A DNA stretch of 30,736 nt from a virus. The position numbers were made by a program, and so were the translations under genes. This document shows, one piece after another, positions 833-19,484 of the stretch. How positions within the stretch are numbered: position 1 is the first letter of the stretch; each line of letters starts with the position of its first letter. The notes beneath the pieces were generated by a model that searched no databases, was not told the origin of the DNA, and saw only the letters and a program-made list of their open reading frames with translations. Where the stretch lies: positions 1 through 30,736 of the IMG/VR virus record IMGVR_UViG_3300046703_000037. One strand, written 5' to 3'.

Positions 833-851
833 TCTCCTGCTTAGTGGAACC

Positions 852-884
852 TGGGCCCGTCCATTTCTCGGGCGGGCCCATTTT
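852..884 (+). terminator. Intrinsic terminator after the putative head gene
   Basis: An 8-bp perfect GC-rich stem, TGGGCCCG (852-859) with CGGGCCCA (873-880), is followed at once by TTTT. It lies in the 68-nt gap between two co-directional virion genes and just before the ribosome-binding site of the next one. Partial read-through would set a high head-gene to tail-gene ratio. Function is inferred from the structure. Confidence 0.65.
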
Positions 885-900
885 CTTGCGTAGGAAAATC

Positions 901-3285
901 ATGCCTGACAAGAAACCAGTCGATTTCAGTTTCCCCGCCAAGGGACTTGACGAGAATTGGGCCTACAAGTCCCAACCCGAGGGCACGTCTCCGGACTGCC
1001 TCAACGTGCGGCCCTATGACGTGATCGCCGCCCGCCTTCGCGGGGGTTCACGGCCCGGTCTGTCCAAGTACGTCGCTGGGGCGATCAACGGCTCGAACCC
1101 GATCCAACGGATGGGCCTCGTGATGAAGTCCATCGTCGGAGGTTCTTCCTCTGTGACTGATCCTTTCACCCAGGCAAACGGCCAACTTGCCGGGACGAAT
1201 TGGACACAGTTTGAGGACGCTGGTGCTACCTACGCGACAAGTGCGACGTTTCCGATTGTAGCCACGAATCAAATTGTGGTTTCGCAACTAAATACGCCGG
1301 GGGGTCGTTCGGTTGGGGCCTTGCATAAGACGGCCGCGGTCACAGGATCGTCATTCACTCTGTCCGCTAAAATCACTCTTGTCGCGAGTAACGCGAATCC
1401 CTCAGCTTCTCAGTTTGGCCTCATAGTCTCGGCCGCTTCGGGGACACTCCCCGTTGCCAATACAGTGTTAGAGACCAACGAAGCATTGATCTACATGACC
1501 CATTCGTTCGGGGTCTACACCCTTGCCTACCTGATCGGAGGCGGGGCTTTCGGATTACAAACCATGACTCCTGGGTCAGGTGATTACCTTGATCCGGCGT
1601 GGTGGACTACCCCTCGAACCTTATCTCTCACTTCCTCGGATGGAGGGGCGACTTGCGTTTTGTCGATAGCAGGCACCCCCCTTCTAACCGGGGCCTTACC
1701 GGGTGCTCCCATCACAGACGCCAATCCTGGATTCAGGATTTATAAGGACAATGTTGCCGGGAACACCGTTACCGTAGATGACTGGACCCTGGCCAATACG
1801 AACTCTCTTTCCAATCGAAAACCAACTATCGTGGTTGTCTCAGGTGGAAGTGTTTACACGGGTGATAAGACTTCGGGAATCGCCATTGCGACTTCGGGCA
1901 CGAGTGTCCTCTCCACTCTCGTCGAAAAGGTCCACATGACGGACTCCATCGGAAAGATGTATCTCGTCGATGGCACGGCCTACAAGAAGTTGGACAATGC
2001 GACCAATACGGTGAGCACCTGGACAGCCACAGCACCGGGGGCCCTTCCAGTGAGCGGGTCGAACACCTGTCGGCTGATCGCCTCCTACCGGGGGCGGATC
2101 GTGCTGTCGGGTCTCGTGGACGATCCCCAGAACTGGTTCATGTCCGCGGCCGGAGATCCTCTCGATTGGGATTATGGGGCCACGGTCTCGGCCGTCATGG
2201 CTGTCGCAGGGAACAATACAGTCGCAGGGAAATGTCCCGATATTGTCACCTGTCTCGCCCCGCTGGGAGACGACATCATGGTGATCGGGGGCGATCATAC
2301 GATCTGGCTCATGCGAGGCGACCCCGCGGACGGCGGCAGGATCGACAATCTAAGCCAGCAGATGGGTATCCTGGGACAGGATTCCTACTGTGTGGACCCG
2401 GACGGGACGTTCTACTTCTTCGGCAACGGTGTCCTGTGGAGCATGTCGAAGCCCCAGCCCTACGCGAAGCAAGAGCCCAAACCGATGAGTCGGGGACGCC
2501 TAGATAAGACCCTCAACGCGATTGACTACAGCCAGAACACCGTGAAACTTCTCTGGGACGAGACCTTCCACGGCATTCACATCTATATCGTACCGAGTGC
2601 GTCAGGGGCCACGACCCACTACTGGTGGGATGCCCGGACGGACGGATTCTGGAAGGATCAGTACCCCACGACCCACGGGCCGGTCTCGGTGATGATCTTC
2701 GACGCGGACGCCGCCAGTGATCGCACCGTCCTTCTCGGGGGCTGGGACAGTTATATCCGGCAGACCGATGCCTCGTCCCTCACGGATGATGGCACCACGA
2801 TCCTCAGCCGGGTGAAGTTTGGGCCGATCACCCCTGGTGGGGTCCATCACAACTGCAAACTGAATCGGGTCGTCACGAGGACCGATCCCGCGACCGATCC
2901 GTTCCTGCTCAGGGTCTACGCGGCGAACTCGCCAGATCAGGTGGTTCTGGCGACGACTCCCGCCTGGGCGACGACGGTAGACGCCGTGACACCCTACGCC
3001 ATGCCCCGGATCACGGGGAACTCGCTTCTGTTCGAGTTGATAAACGATTCATTCTCCACGGCCTGGGTGACGGGTCACGTCTACGCAGTTGGCGATCAGG
3101 TGGTCGCCTCGGATGGCCTGCCTTACATCTCTCTGACCGCTCACACAAGTACCACAGGCGGGGCCCATCCCACTCCTCCTGGGAATGTGACGGACTGGGT
3201 AGTTTCCACATTTCGACGCTGGGCAATCGAAGGGATTTCTGCTATACTGGATGTAACAGGCCGAACGCGGCACGGGAGACTCTAG
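901..3285 (+). CDS. Tail nozzle / stabilisation-like protein with inserted adhesion-type domains
   Basis: 794 residues. ATG at 901 follows AGGAAAATC; an earlier in-frame start at 844 lies across the terminator and is unlikely. The N-terminus (FPAKGLDENWAYKSQPEG, then PDCLNVRP) and the middle (MVIGGDHTIWLMRGDP, FYFFGNGVLW) look like the beta-propeller-type tail proteins of podoviruses (P22 gp10 / T7 gp12-like). Residues about 85-300 look like an insertion: starting DPFTQANGQLAGTNW, the segment resembles a jelly-roll or lectin-like domain, and its DNA is visibly more AT-rich. A second module near residues 718-771 (WVTGHVYAVGDQV, then a YISLTAHT segment and a Trp) resembles a chitin/cellulose-binding CBM5/12 fold. 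The final about 23 residues return to the nozzle-like sequence. Role: connecting tail to head and probably contacting host surface glycans. Family placement is by pattern only. Confidence 0.65.
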   Translation: MPDKKPVDFSFPAKGLDENWAYKSQPEGTSPDCLNVRPYDVIAARLRGGSRPGLSKYVAGAINGSNPIQRMGLVMKSIVGGSSSVTDPFTQANGQLAGTNWTQFEDAGATYATSATFPIVATNQIVVSQLNTPGGRSVGALHKTAAVTGSSFTLSAKITLVASNANPSASQFGLIVSAASGTLPVANTVLETNEALIYMTHSFGVYTLAYLIGGGAFGLQTMTPGSGDYLDPAWWTTPRTLSLTSSDGGATCVLSIAGTPLLTGALPGAPITDANPGFRIYKDNVAGNTVTVDDWTLANTNSLSNRKPTIVVVSGGSVYTGDKTSGIAIATSGTSVLSTLVEKVHMTDSIGKMYLVDGTAYKKLDNATNTVSTWTATAPGALPVSGSNTCRLIASYRGRIVLSGLVDDPQNWFMSAAGDPLDWDYGATVSAVMAVAGNNTVAGKCPDIVTCLAPLGDDIMVIGGDHTIWLMRGDPADGGRIDNLSQQMGILGQDSYCVDPDGTFYFFGNGVLWSMSKPQPYAKQEPKPMSRGRLDKTLNAIDYSQNTVKLLWDETFHGIHIYIVPSASGATTHYWWDARTDGFWKDQYPTTHGPVSVMIFDADAASDRTVLLGGWDSYIRQTDASSLTDDGTTILSRVKFGPITPGGVHHNCKLNRVVTRTDPATDPFLLRVYAANSPDQVVLATTPAWATTVDAVTPYAMPRITGNSLLFELINDSFSTAWVTGHVYAVGDQVVASDGLPYISLTAHTSTTGGAHPTPPGNVTDWVVSTFRRWAIEGISAILDVTGRTRHGRL
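1852..1860 (+). repeat. Dispersed 9-mer GTTTACACG, copy 1
   Basis: Exact copy in the nozzle-like gene, same orientation as transcription, read as Val-Tyr-Thr. The preceding base is T. Confidence 0.6.
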
Positions 3286-4913: not shown

Positions 4914-5675
4914 ATGCCTTCTGGGACTTATAATTCCATCGCTGAGGCCAATGCCGCTAGTTTCGGGAACGCCTCGGGATTCACAGGATCGACTCCGGCC
5001 GCGGGGAACCCCTACCTCCAGAGCCAGATGAATCAGCAAGCTCCGCAGTCGCCCAATATGTCGGGTCTGTTTCCGGGGGCCTCGGGTGGGTTGCAGAACA
5101 TTATGCAGCAACTCCAGTCTTCGCAGAACGCCGCAAATGTTGCAAATCAACAGCGGTACAAGGATATCCTCGGGATGTATAGCAACCTCGGAAAATCTGG
5201 GGAGGCGAGAATCGCCGAGAAGGAGACCCAGGCCCAGGCTGCAAACACTCAAAACCTCACGTCTCGGGGCTTAGGAAATACGACCGTGACTTCTTCCACG
5301 AATCGTGGAATTGCGAGCGATGCTGAGTTCTCCCGGCAGGCCCTCGGGGAACAGGTCGCTCAACTCCAGGGCGGCGTGATGGAGCGAGCCACTCAGCAGG
5401 GCCCGAACCTGTCGATGTACGCGAACCTGATCCAGCAGGCGATGGCCGGTCAGACCGCGGGCCGTCAGCGGACTATCTCCGGAGGCCAGGGCGGGACGTA
5501 CAACGCGAGCGATGTCTACCGCAGCCTCTCGGGCGGGAGCAGCGGGTACGGCGGCTCCCAGGCGAACAACGTGGCTCAGTTCTTCCCGGCCGGATCGTTC
5601 GGATCGCCCCTCGGCCAGCAACTAGCCAACACGCCCTCTCAGCAGTATGATGACTACGATTGGAGTGATGAGTAA
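4914..5675 (+). CDS. Internal virion / ejection-type protein 1
   Basis: 253 residues from ATG 4914 after TAGGAGATAGAG. It is very rich in Gln, Asn, Ser, Gly and Ala. Residues about 55-160 are predicted helical with repeated QQ and NA pairs (GGLQNIMQQLQSSQNAANVAN). The C-terminus is Gly/Ser-rich and ends in a strongly acidic YDDYDWSDE. Its stop overlaps the next start (TAATG). Position as the first of three consecutive genes after the fibres, with this composition, matches small ejection proteins such as P22 gp7 or T7 gp14 by analogy. No family was recognised directly. Confidence 0.55.
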   Translation: MPSGTYNSIAEANAASFGNASGFTGSTPAAGNPYLQSQMNQQAPQSPNMSGLFPGASGGLQNIMQQLQSSQNAANVANQQRYKDILGMYSNLGKSGEARIAEKETQAQAANTQNLTSRGLGNTTVTSSTNRGIASDAEFSRQALGEQVAQLQGGVMERATQQGPNLSMYANLIQQAMAGQTAGRQRTISGGQGGTYNASDVYRSLSGGSSGYGGSQANNVAQFFPAGSFGSPLGQQLANTPSQQYDDYDWSDE

Positions 5676-6673
5676 TGCCGATCAATATTGACTATTCTCC
5701 GGTTGGGGCTCTCACGTCCGCGGCTGCGATGGCGGGCCAAGGCGAAGGTCAGAGACAGTCCTTTGCCCAGGACATGCAACTCCTCGATCTTACTCAGCGG
5801 CAGAACGAAGCCCAGATGAGGCAGTCGGCCCAGAACCGTGCCTTCGATCTCCAGGAGGCGATGGCGAGTCGTCAACTTGCCGCCCAAACCCGCACACCCG
5901 CGGCCGATCATATCGCCGAGCGGGCGGATCTCGCACGGTCTGATCGGGCTGCGAAGCAGAAGCAGTTCAAGGGGCAGTTGGACACGATGCTCTCTACCGG
6001 GACCATTGACCCGACTCAGTATCAGAAGGGTCTCATGGCCCTTATGACCGGGAACGAGACCCTGATGACCCACGTCCTGGCGAACCCCAAGGCGACGGTT
6101 GAGAAGCCGAATATCTCGAATGCCGCGGAGTTGGACGTGATTCGGGAACCATTCCGTGAGAAGCGTCGGATCTTGGAGAGTTCGCTGACGAGTCTGAACA
6201 CGAACCTCGCAAAGTTCGGGTCCATCCCCGAGATGGCCGAGCCGATCAAGACGCAGAAAGATGGTATCCAGAAGCAGATCGACGATCAATTCGCCCAGGA
6301 GACTGCGGCGATAGACCAGTGGCGGAAACAGGGTCGTGGACAGGCCGCAGCCCAGGCCACTCCAGGTGAAGGCTCTCTCACGGACGCCTCGGGGCGAACG
6401 ACTTCGATCTCCTCGGACACCGGGGCCCTTCCCGGCACCGGCCGGATGACGACTCAGGCCACGATCAGCCCCTCCATGCGGGCGATCCTCGATCAGGCTA
6501 GGGGAATGGCCGGTGCGAACGCTGGGAAGATCGGCGGCGACCAGATGACAACCACGACGATTGGCGAGGGCCAGCCCGCGACCGAGGATGTCGTGCGGGC
6601 GATCCTTCAAGAGACGGGCGGGGACAAGGTGAAGACCCGACAACTTCTTCGGGCGAGAGGATACACATTGTAA
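5675..6673 (+). CDS. Internal virion / ejection-type protein 2
   Basis: 332 residues; ATG 5675 overlaps the previous stop (TAATG). It is mainly helical: an N-terminal Gln-rich region (QRQSFAQDMQLLDLTQRQNE), a charged coiled-coil-like segment at about residues 140-225 (REKRRILESSLTSLN ... QKQIDDQFAQE), and a Gly/Thr-rich linker. The end (VVRAILQETGGDKVKTRQLLRARG) is a compact helical tail. There is no signal peptide or membrane span. It is coupled to the giant 1858-residue gene by another TAATG. It is most likely the middle-sized of the three ejected proteins. Function is inferred from order and composition. Confidence 0.55.
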   Translation: MPINIDYSPVGALTSAAAMAGQGEGQRQSFAQDMQLLDLTQRQNEAQMRQSAQNRAFDLQEAMASRQLAAQTRTPAADHIAERADLARSDRAAKQKQFKGQLDTMLSTGTIDPTQYQKGLMALMTGNETLMTHVLANPKATVEKPNISNAAELDVIREPFREKRRILESSLTSLNTNLAKFGSIPEMAEPIKTQKDGIQKQIDDQFAQETAAIDQWRKQGRGQAAAQATPGEGSLTDASGRTTSISSDTGALPGTGRMTTQATISPSMRAILDQARGMAGANAGKIGGDQMTTTTIGEGQPATEDVVRAILQETGGDKVKTRQLLRARGYTL

Positions 6674-9600
6674 TGAGCGACATCGTTGATAGGGTCTTCG
6701 AGACCCTCCCGGCCACGGCCGGAGACATCGTGGACAGGGTTGCCGCTGGTTCTTCTGGCGATCTTGTCGATCAACTCTCTCCTCCTGTTACTCACGAGGA
6801 CGCAATGCAGGCCGCGGGCTCCGAGGTTCTCCGGCAGAATGTTCTCCGGCGATCCAAGCAGTTGCCCGATCTCAATTCTGATGAGTCTGGTGCGATCCTC
6901 GATGCCTTCAAGAGACTCGGCGGGCAACAGCCTGACAAACTCCGTCAGCAACTCGCCGAGGAAACGGCTCACCGGACTCAACTAGCCCGTGGCGTCCTCG
7001 GGGATGCCGGGGCTGGGGCCTTTGAGGCTGTCACCAGCTACGTCCCCGCGATGGCTGGACTCATCGACCCTCAGAGCGGTCTCCGTCTCAAGCAGGGACA
7101 GGAGATTGTTGCGAATGCCGATCCCACGAGCATCATGGGTCAGTTCGCAGGCTTCGGTGTCGGCCTGGGTAAGTTCGCGTTGACTGGTCCCCTCGCCCCG
7201 ATTCTCGCCGGAGTCGAGGGAGCCGGTGAACAGAGGATGACTATCGCCAAGGCTCGGGAGAAGGGCGAGGATATCGGGGGCACTTCCGAGGTTCTGGAGA
7301 CCACGGCCCGTGGCGTCGTGGACGGCGTTCTCACAAAGATGTTTATGAAGGCCGGGGACAAGGCTTCCAACGTGGTCCGGTCCCTGATCCAGCCCTCAGT
7401 GAAGGAAGCCCTGGCCGCGAGTGGCCTGGACACGGCCCGAAAGCTGGCCTGGACCTGGGCGATGGACTCCCTCAAGGTGGGGGCCCTGTCCGAGGGGCAG
7501 TACCTCGCCGATATCGGCCTGGGACACCTTGCGGACCCCAGCATCGTGCCCACCAAGGCCGAGGCCCTCCGTGCCGCCGCCTTCGGTATCGTCTTGCCCT
7601 CCGTCATGGGGGCCGTTCACGGAGTCGGAGGCCGACTTCTCGGCCGGGAGGCTCCTCCTACCCCCGTTTACACGCCCGAAGAGGCTGGTCGAACCATTCC
7701 TGGCACCGAGAACCTCCCGATACCCCCTCTTGTGAGATCCGGAGGGCCCCTGGCGACCGTTCCGGGCGAGGCTCCACGGCCCGGCTATCTAGTCACACCC
7801 CCTCCGACGCCCGGAGAGGCCCCAATCTATTCCGGCGAGCCTGGACCGCCTACGCCGCGTGTCCTGACCCCCTTCCCGCCCGAGGGGTCGATCAAGTATC
7901 CTCAGATCATAGAACTCATCCAGAACGCCCCGGCCCGTGGAGTGGCTCCTGATCCGACAGATCACCCGATGGGTCGGGAGCCTGCCATTGTGACAGGCCA
8001 GAATGTTCCTGATCTCGGGGGCACCGGGACAAGTCCCGAGAAGGTCTATGTCAGTAAGGCCCTACCTCAGACCTTGGAGATCGAAGGCAAGCCGGTGGAC
8101 GTTCATCGCTTTGTGGCCCTCCACGAGACTACCGAACGGAGTCTCCGAGAGGCCGGGGAGTCCGATGACGCTGCCCATGCTGGAGCAACGGCTGCGGAGC
8201 ACGATGCTGTTCGCCGGGCCGGGGTTGATCCCGTGGCCTACGAGAAGGCCCTGGAGCCTTACGAGCGGACGGCCCGAACGGAGTCCCTGGAAGCGGCTCC
8301 CGAGGATCTGGACAAGGTGCCCTATCAGAAACCAGCACCGGCGATCCCCAGGCCGAAGACTGTCGTGACCCAGGAACGGGAGATCGAACAGTATCCCGAG
8401 GGAGCTACTCATGCTACTCCTCACCTGACCTACGACATTTCCCACCTGCAATCCCCGGCTGCTGCCGCGGGCGGTGTGCCCCTGGACACCAAGGGCGAGA
8501 ATCTGTGGGTTCGCCCCGCGGCCGGGAAGAGTAACGCGAAGCGTCAGCTTCTCGTGCAGTTCTCTACCGATCTCATCAACGCGGATCGTCCCCGATCTTC
8601 GGCTGATGACTATTACGACAAACTTTATGCCAACCGCGATGGCTACTCTCGGCCGAAAGACTTCTGGGAGCTTCCTCAGTGGATCGGGGTCGCAGCCAAG
8701 AATCTTCCGAATGCCGATGTCTACGTGGTGCGGAACCTCGCTGAGGCCCAGAAGTTCCTGGCCGAGGCTGGGTATGGGCATGTCGCCATGTCGGCCCTGG
8801 ACGTGAATACGAAGTTGGCCCAGGCCCTCATCACTGGTTACAAGGGCAAGGTCGTGGTCGGCGGCTACACGGACATGACTCCGTTCAAGGGCCAGTCGAA
8901 CGTTACGGTCTACAAGGCCATGCCTGAGTGGATCAAGGCGATGGGCAAGGACTTCACGGAAGGCACGGACTACCGGCACTTCCGCGGCACCGAGGTCGTC
9001 CCCAGATTGTCCCTCTCCGAGGGTTGCCTGCATAATTGTTTCTTTTGCGGTGTGGAGAACAAGGGCAAGGCCCCCCGCGAGATCGACCGGCAGACTGTCG
9101 ATCAGCAGATCGCCTCGTTCAAGGATCTCAAGGCCAAACTCGTCTACGTAAACGATAAGACCTTCGGACAGGCCAGCAACCATCAGGATCTCAAGGAGAT
9201 CTATAAGAGGATGAAGGCCGAGAACCCCGAGTTCCAGGGCTTCATCATCCAGACTTCCGCGGCCCAGATGGCAAAGATGACTCCGGAGTTCCTCCAGGAA
9301 GCCGGTGTGAAGTACGTCGAGATGGGTGTTGAATCCTACAACGACTCGATCCTCAAGTCGGTGCGGAAACCTGCCAATGAGAAGATGATTGACGCCGCCG
9401 TGGAGAAGATCCGGGCGTCCGGTGCCAAGTTCATCCCCAACATTATGATTGGTCTCCCTGGCGAGACGCCGGAGACCTACAGCCGAACGCTGGACTTCCT
9501 CGATCACAACCGCGATCTCATCTCGCACGTCAATGCGTACAATACGGCCCTCTACGCCGGGTCGGATCTGGCAAAGCAGGTCGGTGGAGCCAAGTCCGCG

Positions 9601-12249
9601 GGGGACGCCGACGAGAACGTGACCCAGAAGTCTTGGCAGGCCGATCCCGCTGTCGATCAGTCCTTCCACGACGCCGTGATGAAGTTCGGGTCCGACTCGC
9701 TGGACACATCGGCCCATGAGCCGGGGAAGAGTAGCCTGGAGGGCTACGCCGGGAAAGCATTCTCTGGTGGGAATCTCGGTGGTTCTAATCCTGAGATGCT
9801 TGCAGACGCCCTGCGAGCGGTGGGTGGGGCCGACGTAATCGCGGCCGGGAAACAGGCCATAGATACGGTCCGGAGTGCGGCCGAAGATCTCCAGCGAACT
9901 TTCTCTCCGGGTTCCCGAGGAACTGCTGCCAAACAGACCGTGGCCGAGATGCGGCAGGAGAACTCCCGAGCAGCCCGATCCGCGGATATCCGGTATCGAG
10001 CTTACGACCAAGTCCGCCGAGCCTTCGATGTTTACACGCGACTTCATGGGCAGATCGCCGCGGATGACTTCATGGATCGGATCAACCGGGGCGAGAAGCA
10101 GAGCGACCCGGAACTCCAGTCTATCGCGGATACGATGGACATGGAGCGTCGGGATAAGGTCAAACAGATGGAAGCCCTTGGCACCGGAGCCACAGAAAAG
10201 TTCGATGAAAACTGGTTCGGCCGTCAGTGGGCCAATTCGGATCAGGCTCGATTGTTCTTCCGATCCAGGAAGCCTCTCACCGGGTCGAAGTCCTTCTTGA
10301 AGGGCAGGACATTAGAATCGGTAGCGGAGGGCCGGGCCGCGGGTCTGGAACTAGTCACCGATAACCCCGTCGAGATGCACATTATGAAGATGGGGGAGAT
10401 GGACAAGTACATCGCCGGAGTGAGTGTCATCAAGTCCCTGGAAACAAACGGGGCCGCTAAACGGGTCGTCTCTGGAGACGCCGTGCCTCCGGGTTGGCAG
10501 AGGATTCACGATCAGATCGGTCTCTACAAGGCCAAGAACCCGGTCACGGGTGAGATCGAACGAGGCTCGTATTACGCTCCCGAGGAAGTCGCCACACTCA
10601 TCAATAACCATCTTTCTCCTGGACTTCGTGGGAAGGCATGGTTCAAGACCTACCTGGGGGCCGCGAACTGGCTGAATCAGTTCCAACTCGGAATGAGCGG
10701 ATTCCATTTGGCCTTTACTTCGGGTGATGCCATTGTTTCTAAACTCGCTCTCTCCCTACGTCAGTTGACCAAGGGCGACGTGAGCGGGGCCGTTACGAGT
10801 CTCCTGGGCGTTCCCTTCGCCCCGATCACGAATGCAATCCGTGGACACACGGGTCTCACGGAATGGTTTCACCGAGGCTCTCAGGGGGCCGAGGTTCAAC
10901 AGATCATCAGCATCCTGGAGGATGCTGGGGCTCGTGTGCAATCCGATCCGTTCTATCGCACCCATGTCACGGACAAGATAATGAAGTCCTGGCGGCAGGG
11001 GAACATTCTCGGCTCACTTGGTCGGGCTCTCCTTCTACCCGTGGAACTGCCCACCCGGTTCATCATGGACGTGGTGGTGCCTCGCCAGAAGTTAGGCGTT
11101 GCGATGGATATCGTCCGGATGGAGATGAGAACTAATCCCGGTATCTCCCGAGACGCCCTCGTCGCCAAGGCTCGTTCCGCCTGGGACTCGGCCGACAACC
11201 GGATGGGCCAGTTGGTCTACGACAATTTGTTCTGGAATCACATGACCAAGGACATCGCAATGGCGACGGTCCGATCCGTGGGCTGGAACCTCGGCACCTT
11301 CCGCGAGGTTATCGGCGGTGGGTTCGATCTCCTCCGGGCTCCGATGGATCTGATCCACGGCAAGCCGGTTGAACTCACAAACCGAGCGGCCTACATCCTG
11401 GCCCTGCCCATGATCCATGCGGCGGCAGGATCGTTCCTTCAGTACGTCTTCACCGGCCAGGGGCCCCAGACTATCCGGGATGCGTTCTTCCCCCAGACCG
11501 GAAGCAAGGATGAGAAGGGCCGTCCCCAGCGAACTTCTCTTCCGACTTACTGCAAGGACATCTATCACTTCGGGTCCGAGCCGCTCAAGACCCTGGAGAA
11601 CAAAGTTCACCCTATGATCCAGTTGGTCCATGAGATGCTCATCAATAAAGACTTCTACGGCGTGAAGATTGCCAATGAAGACGATCCGATGATGCAGAAA
11701 CTAATCGACGAGGCGAAGCATGTACTCGGTGCGATGGAGCCTCTCTCCAGTCGAAACCTTCGTCGGGGTCTCGCACAGGGGCAGACCCCCGAGGTAGCAG
11801 CCCGATCCTTCTTGGGGATCACCCCTGCTCCCTCGGCCTTGAATGAGAGTGATGCTGAGCGAGTCGCATCGGACATCATCCAAGAGAAGATCCCGGCCGG
11901 AGCCCGGACCTCGGAGGCGGCGGCAAAGTCTCAGTTCAAGAGAGACATCGCCCGCCAACTTAGAAGTGGGAACACGAAGGCTCTGTCCGACGCTATCGGA
12001 CAGCAGAAGATTTCCACGAATGATGCCTCAGAGATCATTCAGGGAAGTCACGACCAACCCCTGGAGGGACAGTTGAAACATTTGAGTGCCTCCGAGGCTC
12101 TAAAGGTCTGGGCGGTCGCAAATCCGGATGAGAAGAAACTGATGAAGCGGCACATGATTGAGAAACTGTTCGGGGCGAGCGACAGTCTCGCTCCCGCGGA
12201 GTTCAATGCTCTGGCCGCTCAATACCGTTTACAGGGAGTGTTCCGATGA
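6673..12249 (+). CDS. Giant internal virion / polyvalent-type protein with embedded radical SAM domain
   Basis: 1858 residues; ATG 6673 overlaps the previous stop. Layout: residues 1-330 Ala/Gly-rich with amphipathic stretches (IMGQFAGFGVGLGKFALTG). Residues 330-440 form a Pro-rich linker. At 484-488 there is an HETTE motif followed by AHAGATAAEHD, a possible metal site. Residues about 700-780 look Rossmann-like (KVVVGGYTDMTPF). Residues about 780-1000 are a radical SAM core: C785, C789 and C792 form CX3CX2C, then KYVEMGVESYNDSILKSVRK and FIPNIMIGLPGETPETYSRT. From about 1100 to the end is a helical region with membrane-active-looking segments (YILALPMIHAAAGSFLQYVF), like large ejected proteins. 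Radical SAM enzymes use a 4Fe-4S cluster and S-adenosylmethionine to make a 5'-deoxyadenosyl radical. Substrate unknown. Fusion to an ejected protein suggests delivery to the host cell. The radical SAM call is strong; ejection is inferred. Confidence 0.85.
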   Translation: MSDIVDRVFETLPATAGDIVDRVAAGSSGDLVDQLSPPVTHEDAMQAAGSEVLRQNVLRRSKQLPDLNSDESGAILDAFKRLGGQQPDKLRQQLAEETAHRTQLARGVLGDAGAGAFEAVTSYVPAMAGLIDPQSGLRLKQGQEIVANADPTSIMGQFAGFGVGLGKFALTGPLAPILAGVEGAGEQRMTIAKAREKGEDIGGTSEVLETTARGVVDGVLTKMFMKAGDKASNVVRSLIQPSVKEALAASGLDTARKLAWTWAMDSLKVGALSEGQYLADIGLGHLADPSIVPTKAEALRAAAFGIVLPSVMGAVHGVGGRLLGREAPPTPVYTPEEAGRTIPGTENLPIPPLVRSGGPLATVPGEAPRPGYLVTPPPTPGEAPIYSGEPGPPTPRVLTPFPPEGSIKYPQIIELIQNAPARGVAPDPTDHPMGREPAIVTGQNVPDLGGTGTSPEKVYVSKALPQTLEIEGKPVDVHRFVALHETTERSLREAGESDDAAHAGATAAEHDAVRRAGVDPVAYEKALEPYERTARTESLEAAPEDLDKVPYQKPAPAIPRPKTVVTQEREIEQYPEGATHATPHLTYDISHLQSPAAAAGGVPLDTKGENLWVRPAAGKSNAKRQLLVQFSTDLINADRPRSSADDYYDKLYANRDGYSRPKDFWELPQWIGVAAKNLPNADVYVVRNLAEAQKFLAEAGYGHVAMSALDVNTKLAQALITGYKGKVVVGGYTDMTPFKGQSNVTVYKAMPEWIKAMGKDFTEGTDYRHFRGTEVVPRLSLSEGCLHNCFFCGVENKGKAPREIDRQTVDQQIASFKDLKAKLVYVNDKTFGQASNHQDLKEIYKRMKAENPEFQGFIIQTSAAQMAKMTPEFLQEAGVKYVEMGVESYNDSILKSVRKPANEKMIDAAVEKIRASGAKFIPNIMIGLPGETPETYSRTLDFLDHNRDLISHVNAYNTALYAGSDLAKQVGGAKSAGDADENVTQKSWQADPAVDQSFHDAVMKFGSDSLDTSAHEPGKSSLEGYAGKAFSGGNLGGSNPEMLADALRAVGGADVIAAGKQAIDTVRSAAEDLQRTFSPGSRGTAAKQTVAEMRQENSRAARSADIRYRAYDQVRRAFDVYTRLHGQIAADDFMDRINRGEKQSDPELQSIADTMDMERRDKVKQMEALGTGATEKFDENWFGRQWANSDQARLFFRSRKPLTGSKSFLKGRTLESVAEGRAAGLELVTDNPVEMHIMKMGEMDKYIAGVSVIKSLETNGAAKRVVSGDAVPPGWQRIHDQIGLYKAKNPVTGEIERGSYYAPEEVATLINNHLSPGLRGKAWFKTYLGAANWLNQFQLGMSGFHLAFTSGDAIVSKLALSLRQLTKGDVSGAVTSLLGVPFAPITNAIRGHTGLTEWFHRGSQGAEVQQIISILEDAGARVQSDPFYRTHVTDKIMKSWRQGNILGSLGRALLLPVELPTRFIMDVVVPRQKLGVAMDIVRMEMRTNPGISRDALVAKARSAWDSADNRMGQLVYDNLFWNHMTKDIAMATVRSVGWNLGTFREVIGGGFDLLRAPMDLIHGKPVELTNRAAYILALPMIHAAAGSFLQYVFTGQGPQTIRDAFFPQTGSKDEKGRPQRTSLPTYCKDIYHFGSEPLKTLENKVHPMIQLVHEMLINKDFYGVKIANEDDPMMQKLIDEAKHVLGAMEPLSSRNLRRGLAQGQTPEVAARSFLGITPAPSALNESDAERVASDIIQEKIPAGARTSEAAAKSQFKRDIARQLRSGNTKALSDAIGQQKISTNDASEIIQGSHDQPLEGQLKHLSASEALKVWAVANPDEKKLMKRHMIEKLFGASDSLAPAEFNALAAQYRLQGVFR
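7666..7674 (+). repeat. Dispersed 9-mer GTTTACACG, copy 3
   Basis: Exact copy in the giant virion gene, in the Pro-rich linker, read as Val-Tyr-Thr. The preceding base is C. Confidence 0.6.
10030..10038 (+). repeat. Dispersed 9-mer GTTTACACG, copy 4
   Basis: Exact copy in the giant virion gene downstream of the radical SAM part, read as Val-Tyr-Thr. The preceding base is T. A one-mismatch copy (GTTTACAGG) follows at 12227-12235. Confidence 0.6.
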
Positions 12250-15718: not shown

Positions 15719-17046
15719 TAGATGTTCTCCATGAAGCCCTGGTAGTAGTGAACGATAGTCTTCAAGGCCATCTCGAAATCAGGTTCGATGATGCAGAACT
15801 TCCGACAGAAGAGATGGTTATTGAACTGAGCCAGTGTGGTGCAGAGAACAACTGGCTTGTCCATCCCTATAGCCGCAGCACCCATCTCCATCAGGGAGCC
15901 GATAGACTGGCGGGGCGGCATGTAGGGGAAGTGAGCCAGGACGATATCGCAGTCTTGCACGTCGCCCTTATCTCGGGTGCCCATCTCGGGGGACGCCAGA
16001 ACGCCGTTGTAGAGCAGTCCATCGCCAGAGATCTTCGACGTGTCCTTGCCCCGGAGCGGGTCTAAGGTCTCGATTCCGTGGGCCGCGAGGTAGACCGTGG
16101 CGGCATCACGCCAGAGAGAATCAACCGGCTGGCCGGTGATCGGACCGCAGAGATAGACCTTGAACGGCTTCTTCACATGCAGCACTTCGTTTCGACTCTC
16201 GACACCAATAGGCTCGTCGGAGTGAATGCCTGCGAGAGGGGAGCCGGGCAGGAACTCATTCATCCAGGTCGGGGCCGGGGTGAAGGGATTGTCGATAATT
16301 CCGAAGACGGTCGCACTCGGACCCGAGGCCACGTCCACGCCCATAACCTCATAGGCGGCGACTGCCTTGAGTTCCTCGAGATCGAGATCGTGTTCCACGA
16401 TGCGGATCGGCTCCTGCTCCTCAGCAAAGAACCGCGTGAGATTATCGGAGATCCTGACCACCGCGGCTGGATCGAGATAATCGACCGGACTCAGAACCTT
16501 CACCGGATCGGTACAGCCGATCTCGGGCCGTCCCTTCGCGGGGAAGACCGCGGGCCCCTGAGCCGTCTGCACAACGATGTCCTTGGGCTGGATGTACATA
16601 TACCTGTCTATGGTGCCATCCGGGCGAACCTGGCGAGTCCCGATGGGGAACATTGGTGTCTTGTGGGGGCCGTCCACGCCCACTTCACTGAGATAATGAG
16701 GCATGTCGTCCAGGGTCGGAGGAAGACGACCGGCCTTGATCTCTTCCTCGAAATGGGCCAGGGCCATGCCGCCAAAGAGGATCGCCGCAACGTGATCCTC
16801 GCTCGTGTCGCCGAGCTTGAACTTCTCGACGTGCCGCTGGATCGAGGCGATTGTGGAACTAAAGGGCAGCCCCTTCTCCCAATTCCGTGCGGGGTAGGGA
16901 TGCGGCAGACGGTCCTCGCAGGCGAACCGGAGCCACTCACCCAGCCGATTCATCGCGTGAGGGGAGATCAGTTGAAGGGCTGGCTTCTTGCCCCCATCCC
17001 GAACTGCCCCACTCTCGAACGTTCTCATCTCGTCGTGTGCTTGCAC
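15718..17046 (-). CDS. dATP/dGTP diphosphohydrolase-like N-domain fused to deoxyribosyltransferase-like C-domain
   Basis: 442 residues from GTG 17046, with AGGAG 7 nt upstream. Residues about 25-130 (ISPHAMNRLGEWLRFACED, NWEKGLPFSSTIASIQRHVE, EDHVAAILFGGMALAHFEEE) match my recollection of the DUF5664 / dATP-dGTP diphosphohydrolase N-terminal family, a MazG-like all-helical fold. Residues about 294-442 begin KVYLCGPITGQPVDSLWRDA and continue CDIVLAHFPY and GSLMEMGAAAIGMDKPVVL, the pattern of the DUF4406 / nucleoside 2-deoxyribosyltransferase superfamily. The middle 150 residues are unassigned. It probably acts on the dNTP pool during replication. Diphosphohydrolases of this type occur in phages that replace adenine by diaminopurine, but no purZ is in the window. 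Confidence 0.65.
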   Translation of the reverse strand: MQAHDEMRTFESGAVRDGGKKPALQLISPHAMNRLGEWLRFACEDRLPHPYPARNWEKGLPFSSTIASIQRHVEKFKLGDTSEDHVAAILFGGMALAHFEEEIKAGRLPPTLDDMPHYLSEVGVDGPHKTPMFPIGTRQVRPDGTIDRYMYIQPKDIVVQTAQGPAVFPAKGRPEIGCTDPVKVLSPVDYLDPAAVVRISDNLTRFFAEEQEPIRIVEHDLDLEELKAVAAYEVMGVDVASGPSATVFGIIDNPFTPAPTWMNEFLPGSPLAGIHSDEPIGVESRNEVLHVKKPFKVYLCGPITGQPVDSLWRDAATVYLAAHGIETLDPLRGKDTSKISGDGLLYNGVLASPEMGTRDKGDVQDCDIVLAHFPYMPPRQSIGSLMEMGAAAIGMDKPVVLCTTLAQFNNHLFCRKFCIIEPDFEMALKTIVHYYQGFMENI

Positions 17047-19410: not shown

Positions 19411-19484
19411 TACCCCGGCCTGGGCTCGAACCAGGATTTTGCCGCTTTGTATCGCGGTGCCTCTACCATTTGGGCTACCGGGGA
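19411..19484 (-). tRNA. tRNA-like gene with irregular anticodon arm
   Basis: The 74-nt sequence folds as a tRNA. The acceptor stem has six Watson-Crick pairs and a T-T first pair (TCCCCGG with CCGGGGT). T8 is present. The D arm is GCC/GGC around a loop containing GG. The T arm is perfect: CCTGG/CCAGG with loop TTCGAGC. CCA is not encoded. The anticodon arm is irregular: only CCGC/GCGG pairs, around GATACAAA, so a normal 5-bp stem with 7-nt loop cannot form. Taking the T as U33 gives anticodon ACA. It may be a decayed tRNA, a structural mimic, or carry a one-base sequencing error. Confidence 0.6.

Follow-up and report, generated by a model that had tools for sequence, protein, structure and literature searches.

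Why would a phage carry a radical-SAM enzyme inside a giant protein of the type that is ejected into the host, and what would that enzyme do? The question is raised by the virus record IMGVR_UViG_3300046703_000037, which is 30,736 bases long and is probably a fragment of a genome; we analyzed the entire record and call it the window. Its protein of interest is a giant polyvalent-type protein of 1858 aa, encoded by an open frame at 6673..12249 (+). An earlier note, made from the sequence alone, had proposed that a radical-SAM enzyme is embedded in this protein, that the gene is the third of three ejection-type genes, and that the protein fits the polyvalent-protein concept.

The radical-SAM fold is borne out both by the Pfam profile and by a confident structure model. 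Residues 780–943 (9010..9501, +) match the Radical_SAM core (PF04055) with an E-value of 2.9e-17, and a DNA-level match covers the same 9010–9501. The window protein scores 63.8 bits where the cut-off is 29.5, which is more than double, and therefore the assignment is not a chance one. The CX3CX2C motif for the 4Fe-4S cluster and SAM is at residues 785–792 (9025..9048, +), with Cys785, Cys789 and Cys792 exactly where the earlier note had put them, and it is invariant in all 38 aligned copies. The GVES and IMIGLPGETPET blocks are also present as described, at residues 885–888 and 924–935. Radical-SAM is the only Pfam domain in the window giant, and the 1858-aa protein has no match in PHROGs.

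Structure prediction had been suggested as a check, so we note that AlphaFold2, given residues 601–1023 and 37 homologues, reached a pLDDT of 92.4 and a pTM of 0.90. The predicted module of about 410 aa (residues 601–1014; 8473..9714, +) has an N-terminal Rossmann-type domain followed by a radical-SAM barrel, and the fold of the barrel in the model matches many solved members of the superfamily. The realigned PDB matches extend over the two domains, with AprD4 at Z 22.7 over 359 residues, and further MgmA (21.6), CysS (20.8), MiaB (20.0) and OxsB (19.2). On the predicted model, the closest folds are those of AprD4, MgmA, CysS and MiaB. The Rossmann-type part, residues about 622–760 by the secondary structure of the model (8536..8952, +), aligns to AprD4, OxsB, TsrM and CysS. 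The suspicion that a B12-type domain stands in front of the barrel holds at the level of the predicted fold, but not at the level of profiles, as the B12-binding family PF02310 has no match in the window protein (E 1) or in the other giants (E 0.01). AprD4 is itself a member of the class-B radical-SAM group that functions without bound cobalamin.

The module resembles the class-B enzymes (AprD4, MgmA, CysS, OxsB, TsrM) in having a Rossmann domain and then a barrel, which align over both, but it is only 11–17% identical to them, scores under every NCBIfam cut-off and is here embedded in a virion-type protein. The best NCBIfam subfamily was the PhpK family TIGR04479, with 65 bits against 600, and judged by these sequence scores the module is outside every curated radical-SAM subfamily. 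We consider it very improbable that the module modifies tRNA or other RNA in the way of MiaB or Elp3. MiaB does align over both domains, and RimO and Elp3 score by sequence, but the scores are far under the NCBIfam cut-offs. In addition, the 38 aligned copies have no conserved cysteine outside CX3CX2C. The three extra cysteines that hold the second cluster of MiaB and RimO are absent, so that cluster is missing, which argues against membership in the methylthiotransferases.

The earlier note had also raised the objection that the fusion might be a sequencing chimera. This objection fails. Between the window and a related locus, L005, collinearity extends from either side of the module through the surrounding genes, and the insertion recurs in 35 other contigs, so we rule out an assembly chimera. 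The two giants are collinear, with 46–64% identity outside the radical-SAM core (58% over residues 1–329, 46% over 418–771 and 64% over 1040–1858). The last of these stretches is the C-terminal virion-type region (9790..12249, +), which also matches the C-termini of L027 and L031 with an E-value of about 1e-10. Neither the N-terminal nor the C-terminal region of the window giant has a match in phage records. In the L005 giant (L005:8093-12457) the barrel has been lost in-frame and an eroded Rossmann part is kept, while the scaffold remains collinear with the window.

Scans of viral contigs and ORF analysis found the module inside ORFs of 1386–4599 aa in 35 viral contigs besides the window, which include about 30 distinct ones, and so other, uncultured phages with the same fusion, which the earlier note had proposed to look for, do exist. 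PF04055 matches all 25 of the other module-bearing giants that were scanned. In 12 further loci, 11 of them viral and one on a Neptuniibacter MAG contig, the module forms a stand-alone gene, roughly 380–560 aa long. At one of these loci another radical-SAM gene of smaller size (PF04055, Fer4_12) lies just downstream of the module (L046:11552-12079). The copies of the module in the other giant ORFs are 34–54% identical, and the ORFs that host them are otherwise mostly unrelated; the giants are mosaics that mostly share little outside the module. Together with the loss of the barrel in L005, this tells us that the module behaves as a shuffled cassette, whose loss the scaffold can tolerate.

In a tree rooted with a distantly related sequence from a Mesorhizobium plasmid (29% identity, and a very long branch), most stand-alone genes fall outside the fused group, but L040 and L041 nest inside it with modest support, which takes at least two changes of state. 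The idea that fused and stand-alone modules are two separate lineages is thus unsupported. We also asked whether the module could be a dead structural remnant, as the eroded, barrel-less copy in the close relative L005 might suggest. This is a very slim chance, given that none of 38 copies departs from the three cysteines or the SAM-domain motifs and that dN/dS of the module is 0.04–0.20 in the three close pairs for which it was computable, indicating purifying selection.

The family does not look like an ordinary cellular enzyme. When 84,980 genomes were scanned with a pattern, the one clear member was that on the Neptuniibacter MAG contig, which carries phage-like genes, and a profile search covering 274 genomes from Neptuniibacter's class added no further member. 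There were no family members in 50,697 phage records either, where we saw only weak matches to distant radical-SAM proteins. The family seems to be confined to phages.

The case that the giant travels in the virion begins with its neighbors. Upstream on the same strand are a tail-nozzle-like gene of 813 aa (844..3285, +), a first ejection-type gene of 253 aa (4914..5675, +) and a second, Gln-rich ejection-type gene of 332 aa (5675..6673, +). Each has a counterpart in the same position in L005 (46% identity, 56% over 149 aa and 27%, respectively) and in another related locus, L002 (hhalign probabilities of 100, 98 and 98). The order of the three genes before the giant is kept in both, and the giant's place as third, behind two ejection-type genes, is supported. 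The virion role of these upstream genes is judged from where they lie and how long they are, as is the nozzle-like name, with weak support from PHROGs at other loci, and the nozzle-like gene of the window has no matches in phage records. The T7-type portal family PF12236 had no match anywhere; it was silent even in the controls, so this result is uninformative.

Elsewhere in the window, a single gene at 15721–17046 (-) encodes a fusion of two parts, a dATP/dGTP diphosphohydrolase N-terminal domain (PF18909) and a nucleoside 2-deoxyribosyltransferase (PF05014). PF18909 is found in 16 of the 38 related records, and a link to nucleotide or base modification is possible. A connection to Z-genomes through PurZ was rejected, as PurZ was found in no virus record. 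There is also a tRNA at 19411–19484 (-), which ARAGORN reports as 'tRNA-???' (anticodon undetermined) and for which the Rfam tRNA match is just above threshold.

The second part of the case is the kind of protein this is. Phage polyvalent proteins sit near virion genes, zincin-like peptidases likely process them, and the LPD38 domain is restricted to the phage type (Iyer et al. 2017, PMC5512222). Giants related to ours bear ART-PolyVal, LPD38 and LPD22, along with GNAT, NUDIX, DnaJ-type, DUF7178 and other domains, and 24 of 30 have an HExxH motif. From the ART-PolyVal, LPD38, LPD22 and HExxH of these relatives we conclude that the giants are phage polyvalent proteins, in agreement with the earlier note; several disparate domains per chain (ART, GNAT, NUDIX, DUF7178, LPD38) occur across the family. 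The window giant itself has no Pfam polyvalent domain, and its motif is HETTE instead of HExxH. The region around it (residues 484–523; 8122..8241, +) has no Pfam match and, by the motif, is possibly a degenerate zincin. At L045:12664-13269, an MPTase-PolyVal zincin (PF18818, E 5.6e-9) has a small gene of its own, close to the stand-alone genes for the radical-SAM module and DUF7178. The giants are like the catalogued phage polyvalent proteins in size, in their many domains and in lying near virion genes, but the text of the paper that catalogs 131 domains of such proteins does not contain 'radical', 'Fe-S' or 'glycosylase' (PMC5512222).

Another close comparison is the N4 virion RNA polymerase gp50, a giant ejected enzyme that is encoded with two smaller ejection proteins and is proposed to cross a channel of roughly 35 angstrom as beads on a string (PMC12633501). 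The window giant shares with gp50 the two smaller ejection-type genes, an arrangement as separate globular beads and, if HETTE marks a degenerate zincin, a zincin-like motif. It differs in that the N4 enzyme is an RNA polymerase and that ejection in N4 is experimental, while for the window giant we infer it. The 2025 N4 paper does mention 'radical SAM', but only in reference to an HExxH motif (PMC12633501).

Taking gene order, the polyvalent domains of relatives and the N4 precedent by analogy, we believe that the giant is probably packaged in the virion and delivered into bacteria as infection begins. The reading in which it is no injected effector but a late product that works inside the cell that makes it, for example on phage DNA before packaging, we judge to be quite unlikely. 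It draws on the 12 loci that encode the enzyme as a separate gene among non-virion genes, which do tell us that injection is not required for the enzyme to function. However, it leaves aside the giant's placement behind ejection-type genes, the LPD38, ART-PolyVal and LPD22 of its relatives, and a fusion that has been kept in about 30 distinct giants.

What an injected radical-SAM enzyme would act on is best approached through DUF7178 (PF23802, phrog_3842; SIO1 gp9), the sole partner that recurs both fused to the module and near the stand-alone gene. In twelve records a single open frame holds both the module and a DUF7178 match, which in 10 of these exceeds the Pfam cut-off. It also lies near 8 of the 12 stand-alone modules on the same strand, within 2.1 kb in L040, L041, L042, L044, L045, L046 and L048 and at 3.2 kb in L092. 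Overall, DUF7178 is present in 21 of 40 records (counting L005, which has lost the module) versus 2 of 25 unrelated viral records (Fisher p 0.0004), a comparison to be taken as a guide only, as the control set is small and unmatched. It was not found in 17 of the 38 radical-SAM records besides the window, many of which are fragments, nor within the 30.7-kb window fragment. In each of the two syntenic relatives, the record contains a DUF7178 copy of its own, separate from the giant (G001 for L002 and G004 for L005).

DUF7178 is also found without the module, in cultured phages, in marine podoviruses, where the same domain stands alone, and in L005. In the control records of L072 and L079 it lies inside 1459-aa open frames (G056:37100-37681 and G061:35340-35921), and it may be common in large phage proteins that have no radical-SAM module. 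Pfam and PHROGs give no function for it, and we found no paper on it. The copies described here are fused to the module or lie near it, and we predict an HhH-GPD glycosylase fold for the domain. The AlphaFold2 model of DUF7178 is all-helical (pLDDT 87.5), and the realigned matches listed are HhH-GPD glycosylase structures or their homologues. The best among these is the M. jannaschii 8-oxoguanine glycosylase, with Z 11.8 over 168 of 200 residues; helical models can reach such a Z by chance, and for a mostly helical model any Z under 13 calls for caution. A Foldseek search alone was weak (E 0.57). Lys109 and Asp129 are invariant, with a spacing that we take to be about that of the HhH-GPD catalytic pair. 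On the model, DUF7178 likely has the fold of an HhH-GPD DNA glycosylase.

Near four of the stand-alone modules there is another conserved gene, of about 95 aa (L041:6824-7102, L044:7568-7867, L045:11474-11749 and L048:4076-4342). One member shows a weak resemblance to S-adenosylmethionine lyases (E 0.003).

The earlier note had left the substrate open among RNA, protein, a cofactor and phage DNA. The association with a domain of predicted glycosylase fold favors a nucleic-acid base instead, and taken alone this choice of substrate is tentative, at clearly less than an even chance. A different reading, in which the injected module would act on a protein or small molecule, in the manner of MgmA, RimO or AprD4, and DUF7178 is an independent passenger, seems unlikely to us. 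The closest folds, AprD4 and MgmA, fit it, as do PhpK as the best sequence family, the ART and GNAT domains of the giants, which act on proteins, and the finding of DUF7178 alone. Against the passenger idea, no other partner recurs in both the fused and the stand-alone setting.

The explanation that we favor as a whole, with slightly better than even confidence, is that an ejected polyvalent protein delivers an active class-B radical-SAM enzyme which, together with DUF7178, modifies nucleic-acid bases early in infection. The virion would contain the giant and deliver it to the host either along with the DNA or before it, and after passing the tail channel the module would probably gain or regain its 4Fe-4S cluster in the host cytoplasm. 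It would then cleave SAM in order to alter, early in infection, a target that is most likely a nucleic-acid base, in the DNA of host or phage or in an RNA. The DUF7178 partner, fused or encoded nearby in many relatives and modeled with an HhH-DNA-glycosylase fold, would act together with the module, and the zincin-like protease domain of relatives may cut the domains apart. A more specific version, in which the two are a pair that modifies or replaces bases on DNA in the first minutes of infection, is doubtful in our estimate. If it is true, radical-based nucleic-acid modification would be delivered as a protein, which would mark incoming phage DNA before phage gene expression or attack host DNA.

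Radical-SAM genes are already known as ordinary phage genes, and our search of the open-access literature turned up none built into an ejection protein. It is new that polyvalent, probably ejected proteins carry this further catalytic class, from a radical-SAM family seemingly confined to phages. Also new are DUF7178 as a recurrent partner of the module and the cassette's parallel existence as a stand-alone phage gene. An Fe-S radical enzyme thus joins the proteins that phages probably inject, as a recurrent, conserved and apparently phage-restricted family and not as a single odd fusion. DUF7178, a domain of cultured podoviruses, gains a likely fold from its model and a chemical partner. The finding raises the questions of how a 4Fe-4S enzyme would pass through a tail channel of roughly 35 angstrom, and of what requires radical chemistry before the onset of phage transcription.
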